In this document: positions 12,521 to 12,809 of the stretch, piece by piece
How the letters are laid out: each line of letters opens with the position of its first letter
How positions within the stretch are numbered: position 1 is the stretch's first letter
DNA from: Bacteroidales bacterium
GTDB lineage: Bacteria > Bacteroidota > Bacteroidia > Bacteroidales > Dysgonomonadaceae
Assembly: GCA_012727735.1 (NCBI GenBank)
Contig: JAAYGM010000015.1
Coordinates: 1 to 34,189 of the forward strand
Reading direction: 5' to 3'
Length of the DNA stretch: 34,189 nt
Notes under the pieces: generated by a model
What the model saw: the letters and a program-made list of their open reading frames with translations, nothing else
What the model was told of the DNA's origin: nothing
The model's database searches: none
Position numbers and translations under genes: made by a program

Positions 12521-12593
12521 AGCGAAAGACGGGACTCGAACCCGCGACCCCGACCTTGGCAAGGTCGTGCTCTACCAACTGAGCTACTTTCGC
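12521..12593 (-). tRNA. tRNA-Gly (anticodon GCC)
   Basis: On - the sequence opens GCGAAAGTAGCTCAGTTGG, has the anticodon stem CGACC/GGTCG around loop TTGCCAA (anticodon GCC), a T-loop GGGTTCGAGTCCC and closes CTTTCGC plus discriminator T. The 7-bp acceptor stem, D-arm GCTC/GAGC, anticodon arm and T-arm all pair. CCA is not encoded. Length is 73 nt. The promoter lies some 190 nt upstream, with a duplicated 5' half between. Confidence 0.97.
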
Positions 12594-12704
12594 AATATGT
12601 AATCTATCAATACCTTGCCAAGGTCGGTTTTCATCTCACTTTTGGGGCAAGGTCGTGCTCTACCAACTGAGCTACTTTCGCAATATGTAATCTATCAATA
12701 CCTT
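12558..12704. repeat. Direct repeat of tRNA 5' half plus leader (59 bp, period 88)
   Basis: Positions 12558-12616 and 12646-12704 are identical: the 36-nt tRNA half plus 23 nt of its 5' flank (AATATGTAATCTATCAATACCTT on +). Similarity continues weakly for about 17 more bases (14 matching by eye). This is the trace of a tandem duplication in which the promoter-proximal copy lost its 3' half. Confidence 0.92.
12646..12681 (-). pseudogene. tRNA-Gly 5' half (truncated tandem copy)
   Basis: Exact repeat of the first 36 nt of the tRNA-Gly gene, covering the acceptor 5' strand, the D-arm and the anticodon stem up to the GCC anticodon. After it the sequence changes to CCAAAAGTGAGATG and no 3' half follows. 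It lies between the promoter and the intact tRNA, so it should be transcribed with it. Confidence 0.9.
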
Positions 12705-12778
12705 TCCAGGATCAGTTTCACAACATGAAAGCTATTTTGCAATTGAAACAAACTCGTTGCAGGCTCAATTTGCGGCTA

Positions 12779-12809
12779 CAAAGATAGCCTTAAGTTTTGT
12801 TATTTCAAA
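12779..12809 (-). promoter_or_regulatory. Bacteroidetes-type promoter of the tRNA-Gly transcript
   Basis: On - a TTTG (12806-12809) is followed after 19 nt by TATCTTTG (12779-12786), a full match to the -33 TTTG / -7 TAnnTTTG pattern. Transcription should begin near 12772, giving a leader that contains the tRNA half before the intact tRNA. Confidence 0.75.

Follow-up and report, generated by a model that had tools for sequence, protein, structure and literature searches.

The tRNA-Gly(GCC) gene in the window (the whole 34,189-nt stretch of DNA analysed, from contig JAAYGM010000015.1 of a Bacteroidales bacterium of the Dysgonomonadaceae, GCA_012727735.1) was preceded by the 5' half of the same tRNA, a variable insert, a 14-nt arm antisense to the anticodon arm of the tRNA, and an AT-rich linker. 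The same architecture recurred in relatives, where 1 to 8 tandem copies of the unit (insert 14-24 nt) preceded tRNA-Gly(GCC). The arm covaried with the tRNA, its complementarity had steep edges, and its centre base was that of an antisense copy. The best reading (probability roughly 0.4) is that of a bistable cis-acting RNA leader that may gate the folding or maturation of tRNA-Gly(GCC), as sequence comparison and modelled folds suggest.

Architecture of the locus

The exact 59-bp direct repeat (12558-12616 and 12646-12704; identity computed by script) comprised 36 nt of tRNA and 23 nt of leader, and both the repeat and the promoter (Table 1) were as given in the preliminary description of this DNA. 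The Bacteroidetes promoter consensus appears as TTTG / TAnnTTTG in the passages retrieved from PMC7366714. The half contained the acceptor strand, the D-arm, the anticodon-stem strand and the loop through the last anticodon base, and stood about 52 nt from the intact tRNA. The tRNA-Gly(GCC) 36-mer had 2 copies in the window with up to three mismatches allowed (0/100 shuffles). As described earlier, the half sits between the promoter and the intact tRNA, and therefore the predicted transcript should include it.

The spacer held ACCTTGGCAAGGT, and its complementarity to the tRNA was longer than previously noted, with 16 nt perfect (12612-12627 against 12550-12565). The approximate repeat reached 73 nt at 95% identity because a decayed second arm sits upstream of the half; by its letters, this outer arm is the relic of a further unit once upstream. 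The inverted repeat and T-run behind the tRNA are probably its terminator. In an Rfam scan of 11500-14200, the tRNA was the sole match at the gathering score, and the weaker matches fell on the terminator hairpin or elsewhere, none of them over the half or the arm.

Table 1. Features of the tRNA-Gly(GCC) locus, in order of predicted transcription; positions are those of the window.
Feature	Position	Strand	Basis
Promoter TTTG-N19-TATCTTTG, Bacteroidetes sigma-ABfr type	12779..12809	-	Sequence, and consensus in passages of PMC7366714
Decayed outer antisense arm TGATCCTGGAAAGG	12701..12714	-	10/14 to CGACCTTGGCAAGG, counted by eye
23-nt leader stretch, duplicated along with the half	12682..12704	-	Repeat comparison
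5' half of tRNA-Gly(GCC), positions 1-36	12646..12681	-	Repeat; found in relatives too
Variable insert CCAAAAGTGAGATGAAAAC, 19 nt	12627..12645	-	Relatives: 14-24 nt, mostly starting with CC
Antisense arm CGACCTTGGCAAGG, complementary to tRNA positions 30-43	12613..12626	-	Complementarity, counts over loci
AT-rich linker, 19 nt, as the leader directly 5' of the intact tRNA	12594..12612	-	Sequence
Intact tRNA-Gly(GCC)	12520..12593	-	ARAGORN; Rfam RF00005, 70.9 bits
tRNA positions 30-43, target of the antisense arm	12551..12564	-	Complementarity, counts over loci
Inverted repeat and T-run, probably the terminator	12441..12486	-	22-nt arms, 91% complementary

The gene of a GAF-domain protein (12820-13362) adjoined the tRNA. 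It contained, upstream of the promoter, a 13-nt direct repeat, ACTGTCCACATCG, in 2 copies 15 nt apart (12877-12904). By eye, a comparable gene end seemed to stand before the array in several relatives, and the locus looked syntenic.

Half and arm as one unit

A search by half similarity alone around 149 tRNA-Gly(GCC) genes found 135 distinct halves nearby. An arm matching its own tRNA at 12/14 positions or more stood 14-24 nt past the half in 134/135 of them, most of the counted loci having come from a pattern containing CTTGGCAAG, which 124/134 units match; the remaining half ran into Ns. Loci derived from BLAST and not from the arm pattern had the arm in 36/36 halves (29 loci). The possible pairing between spacer and anticodon arm, raised in the preliminary description, was the strongest and most conserved feature of the element. 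The arm was found at 128/169 tRNA-Gly(GCC) genes (reversed control 3) and at 0/106 neighbouring tRNA-Leu genes of the same loci.

The half was present at 112/149 genes, and 32 of the 37 genes lacking it showed at least 300 nt upstream, many half-less genes stemming from genomes drawn irrespective of the element. In three loci (L232, L235, L233), the arm was intact and the half reduced to its 3' part, and therefore the arm, not the half, seems to be the core of the element. The earlier emphasis on a 5' half resembling stress-derived tRNA halves was not borne out by these loci.

The halves of five loci (L014, L022, L037, L042, L046) shared a D-loop variant, CAGGATNGG (CAAGATAGG in one unit), that was absent from the adjacent tRNA, and their acceptor strand mostly still fitted that tRNA. 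A coding insert was rejected, as the frequent ATG or GTG, on inspection by eye, varied in frame relative to the arm.

Complementarity and covariation of arm and tRNA

Watson-Crick complementarity was 93-100% at tRNA positions 31-43, and 61% at position 44, 79% at position 30 and 35% at position 29. Pattern searches found 147 distinct units, with the tRNA in view for 114, and five arm bases were the exact complement of positions 39-43 in 103/114 (CAACC, CGACC or TAACC). Going by record titles, Dysgonomonadaceae, Bacteroidaceae, Paludibacteraceae and Tannerella each had more than one stem variant, always with a matching arm, a distribution that points to repeated, independent co-changes of arm and tRNA.

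Across 79 non-redundant loci, 98.0% of cells were paired (8-57% with slid partners), and position 42 had 45 A-U pairs, 34 G-C pairs and zero mismatches. Two-sided changes occupied 51 cells against 17.8 in shuffles (0/500 shuffles as high). Two of five covariation measures failed to exceed shuffles; pairs with a two-sided change numbered 2 (1.9 in shuffles), and further pair types 5 (6.0 in shuffles). Seven of the 14 pairs were invariant, partly because the loci of this alignment were picked with the arm core fixed.

Where half and tRNA were unlike at positions 27-31, the arm equalled the tRNA in 8/8. Departures of the arm at positions 43-31 were compatible with G-U pairing in 13/21 units (5.7 expected), nine of these 13 being one change, arm G against U41, in seven loci; counted once per locus and change, 11/15 were G-U compatible.

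Apart from its centre base the anticodon arm is a palindrome, and therefore antisense and direct copies differ at that base only. The centre was G, as in an antisense copy (CTTGGCAAG), at 80 places in 39/101 genomes; a centre other than G (CTTGHCAAG) was found in 1/101 genomes, with A, and C in none. A direct second copy of the anticodon arm was ruled out by this base. The tRNA bases 27-31 are also the same as the first five of the arm, so that covariation at positions 42-43 alone may reflect copying of the 5' strand; against such copying, only the centre base and the edges of complementarity argue for antisense.

Two loci of one genome (G038; L023 and L044) differed in their stems, each with a matching arm in cis, which favours cis pairing. 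In a Tannerella sp. locus (L075), the tRNA had the anticodon TCC, and the half and arm upstream were still of the GCC type, possibly through a recent anticodon change.

Distribution among relatives

The unit was read from 20 fetched stretches and from the loci of a genus search. The latter, with the DNA of the window, had matches in 39/39 genomes, many covering half, insert, arm and tRNA, and others the tRNA only. One genome (G003) had eight units of about 118 nt each, and some loci (e.g., L032, L035, L036) had no element in view. Absence of the half from all close relatives had been proposed as grounds for discarding the initial observation; the half was present in relatives, and that refutation fails. 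A private duplication scar was ruled out, as relatives share the unit. Nor did the earlier suggestion of only a scar hold, given the recurrence of the architecture across several families and the covariation of arm and tRNA.

The exact pattern (half end, then 12-40 nt, then CTTGGCAAG) was present in 28/39 genomes of the genus and 39/101 of the family (reversed control 0). It was missing from 25/25 genomes of genus g3 and 6/6 of genus g4, both well sampled and of the same family. A scan across named genomes of bacteria and archaea returned at least 120 stretches, and the 80 matches listed with titles all had names belonging to Bacteroidota, the placement of two 'Candidatus' genera having been checked. 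The matches listed included Proteiniphilum, Petrimonas, Fermentimonas, Tannerella forsythia, Odoribacter laneus and Paludibacter, as well as Alistipes, Prevotella, Porphyromonas and Bacteroidaceae. Their genera include gut, oral and digester bacteria.

A covariance model of the element (R1) found full elements (above 60 bits; stricter filters there may have lost some) in 10/393 genomes across Bacteroidales, in six of 96 families. The R1 tally at E 0.001 (393/393) was discarded as meaningless because the model also gives plain tRNA-Gly about 54 bits. A pattern of arm followed by tRNA matched 7/393 genomes; six of the matches preceded tRNA-Gly and bore halves as well, and the seventh (G428) had, by its letters, no tRNA behind it. 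This pattern recovered 6 of those 10 genomes, and therefore misses other linker lengths. In a sample of the phylum, a pattern that presumes YTTGCC and TTGGCAAR, which other stems may escape, was found in the genome of the window only (0/391 others; 385 of other orders and 6 Bacteroidales).

The element occurs in several families and is therefore old enough to span them. Most of the sampled genomes have either lost it or never acquired it. Many relatives are without it and loci shed it (the second tRNA-Gly(GCC) locus of the same genome; L236, with promoter then tRNA), so it is dispensable. Elements directly preceded each tRNA-Gly in view, even within tRNA operons (L079, L132). Several assemblies of relatives stopped near or within arrays (L040-L044, L046, L047, L050, L052), and draft genomes therefore probably understate array length. 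Among seemingly solo halves in relatives, several lay at contig ends, where arrays break assemblies.

The second tRNA-Gly(GCC) gene of the same genome (G000:C50, L002, about 1500-1680) had an identical tRNA, no half, and a tRNA-Leu behind it. A decayed arm, CGACACTGGCAAGT, lay 60 nt upstream of this tRNA (11/14; equalled in 0.5% of 200 shuffles), and by these remnants the locus is an element under loss. In this genome the covariance model gave the element 85.3 bits, plain tRNA-Gly(GCC) 52.3 and all others at most 35.5; no copy remote from tRNA genes scored near the element, and a dispersed SINE-like repeat was rejected on these scores.

Predicted folding and proposed mechanism

The two alternative folds and their energies are predictions from RNAfold, which allows nested pairs only and ignores pseudoknots, co-transcriptional kinetics, modifications and proteins. 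For transcripts running from the half to the tRNA end at 86 loci, the predicted probability of arm-tRNA pairing averaged 0.99, that of the half acceptor strand with the tRNA 3' strand was 0.86, and that of the native anticodon stem was 0.003. In 89 transcripts, with the leader taken from the last half, the predicted joint fold beat leader and tRNA apart by a mean of 11.2 kcal/mol (0 to 19). The joint fold was still favoured with cut-down halves (L235, 8.8, and L233, 11.2 kcal/mol; L232, only 3.7) and in two relics (L237, 6.4, and the second locus of the same genome, 6.0 kcal/mol). Covariation and folding thus agreed with pairing of leader and tRNA (pair counts over 79 loci; predicted folds of 86 and 89 transcripts). 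A compact hairpin with an AGAG-, AGTG- or AGCG-like loop stood between arm and tRNA in seven loci (L088, L111, L180, L232, L233, L033, L045), its stem sequences differing.

In the bistable leader proposed here, the arm (with GGCAAGG) would in one state pair with the CCTTGCC end of the half as a local 7-bp hairpin, leaving the downstream tRNA free to fold. In the other state, the arm would pair over 13-16 bp with the anticodon arm of the downstream tRNA and so capture it. The tRNA's own 5' acceptor strand would then be trapped within the loop, the upstream half would provide a spare copy of this strand and of the D-arm, and the result would be a tRNA-like precursor with a blocked anticodon. Closure of the stem by the spare half would explain why the whole half to position 36 is usually kept. 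The share of precursor that ends as usable tRNA-Gly would depend on the balance of the two states, whether by way of RNase P, of folding or of decay, and tandem copies would alter the dose of arm. Two genomes (G003, G004) carried the element at both tRNA-Gly(GCC) loci in view, and therefore the captured state must have a way out.

A role as leader or decoy in tRNA folding or processing, one of the possibilities named in the preliminary description, would fit the pairing potential of arm and tRNA. Counting against the leader reading are the patchy spread of the element (10/393 Bacteroidales genomes, and none in genera g3 and g4), its dispensability, the possible copying of the 5' strand, the two covariation measures level with shuffles, the mismatch at L075 and the seven invariant pairs. 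A fuller form of this reading is doubtful: an RNA switch built into a housekeeping tRNA gene, in which two alternative folds would share one 3' half, RNase P would have two candidate 5' ends to cut at, strand exchange would set glycine decoding capacity, and array copy number would be the dial.

No description of such an element appeared in the titles, abstracts and passages retrieved from open-access PMC papers. On the comparative evidence, the element is real, conserved in form and undescribed in the literature searched, and an RNA switch acting on tRNA folding may be a form of tRNA control likewise undescribed there. If the proposal is true, essential tRNA genes in several Bacteroidales families hold a built-in RNA competitor of their own fold, which would add a new layer of tRNA control and offer a natural system in which to test RNA strand exchange and substrate choice by RNase P. 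For small-RNA studies it would also mean that 5' tRNA-Gly(GCC) 'halves' can be genome-encoded and not cut from mature tRNA.

Alternative explanations

The strongest counter-reading, somewhat unlikely on balance, is a functionless duplication that maintains itself. A single tandem duplication with a template-switch inversion would have made the unit; homologous recombination would keep the half tRNA-like, with copies drifting from 1 to 8, and repair templated by the inverted repeat would keep the arm complementary. Units were near identical within an array and unlike between species, and losses, decayed outer units, relics and a patchy distribution were observed, all in agreement with this account. 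The anticodon arm, palindromic save its centre, is moreover a likely site of template switching, and templated repair could match arm to tRNA without selection. However, the edges of complementarity were steep across all units, the departures of the arm leaned to G-U (11/15 by locus), and the three loci with a cut-down half retained an intact arm; these observations favour selection, none of them decisively. The arm of L075 was also not at once rewritten after the change in its tRNA, and a useless arm should decay, given that it is predicted to disturb the fold of an essential tRNA.

An RNA acting in trans is distinctly unlikely. RNase P would release the leader, and its arms would bind mature tRNA-Gly(GCC) or fragments of it as a sponge, decoy or 5'-half RNA. 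The leader was predicted to bind the tRNA of its own locus (median -12.9 kcal/mol, 86 loci) more strongly than tRNA-Gly(TCC) (-2.6) or tRNA-Leu (-1.1), and arrays would supply many arms per transcript (8 per predicted transcript in L037). Against this, each arm of G038 matched the tRNA in cis although its two loci differ, elements stood directly before each tRNA-Gly in view, tRNA operons included, and the genome of the window had no near-scoring copy apart from tRNA genes.

A transcription attenuator, with leader hairpins governing read-through into the tRNA, is very improbable: a few linkers had a hairpin followed by T-runs (L088, L111), but among linkers of at least 20 nt only 9/142 had five or more T in a row, a linker terminator being rejected on this count, and linker folds were not generally stable (mean z -0.43).

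An attachment site or footprint of a mobile element targeting the anticodon loop of tRNA-Gly is disfavoured and hardly credible, for although the anticodon arm is a symmetric site and integration commonly makes partial tRNA copies in prokaryotes (passages of PMC9897764), half and tRNA were about 52 nt apart, no fixed foreign sequence was found, the arm followed the host tRNA, six neighbouring proteins scanned included no integrase (four in the TonB receptor, GAF, OmpA and YidC families of Pfam, two unmatched), viral contigs gave 0 matches, and plasmid and phage records matched the tRNA-like half only, over at most 42% of the query.

Comparison with known systems

The tyrT operon of E. coli, linked with rtT RNA, has beside its tRNA gene tandem repeats that include a fragment of this tRNA and are transcribed together with it. 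The present element resembles it in its tandem repeats holding a tRNA fragment (1-8 units upstream of the tRNA) and in co-transcription, which is here predicted. The rtT fragment is the 3' end and lies downstream, whereas here a 5' half lies upstream and is joined by an antisense arm.

T-box leaders regulate synthetase or amino-acid genes, and their pairing with the tRNA involves three bases of the anticodon. The present leader is likewise complementary to a tRNA anticodon, but over 13-14 nt, in cis and ahead of the tRNA itself. Of the six matches that Rfam gave for 11500-14200 up to E 1, none was a T-box, and a terminator or antiterminator of the T-box type before a coding gene was lacking, the downstream gene being the tRNA and T-runs being confined to 9/142 linkers.

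Eukaryotic tRNA introns, and those group I introns that lie in tRNA anticodon loops, interrupt the loop and carry a complement of the exon junction. The likeness lies in the interruption at the anticodon loop together with a complementary sequence; here, however, an intact tRNA follows, no splicing is needed, and the length of the unit leaves no room for a catalytic core. The unit consists of an insert of 14-24 nt, arm and linker only, and no intron was among the Rfam matches.

Integration of mobile elements leaves tRNA gene fragments, according to passages of PMC9897764, and the present locus shares with these a partial and a complete copy of one tRNA. It differs in having no element between the copies, in its conserved architecture and in the antisense arm; the copies were about 52 nt apart, and no integrase family was found among the six neighbours scanned.

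Structures in pre-tRNA 5' leaders hinder RNase P, and pairing of the leader delays 5' maturation; a leader stem-loop in the valVW operon of E. coli is a natural example (passages of PMC9433436). The present leader is likewise predicted to pair, and a delay in maturation is proposed for it. The leaders described in those passages act near the cleavage site or on the 3' RCCA, whereas the present leader would act through the anticodon arm and a spare 5' half.
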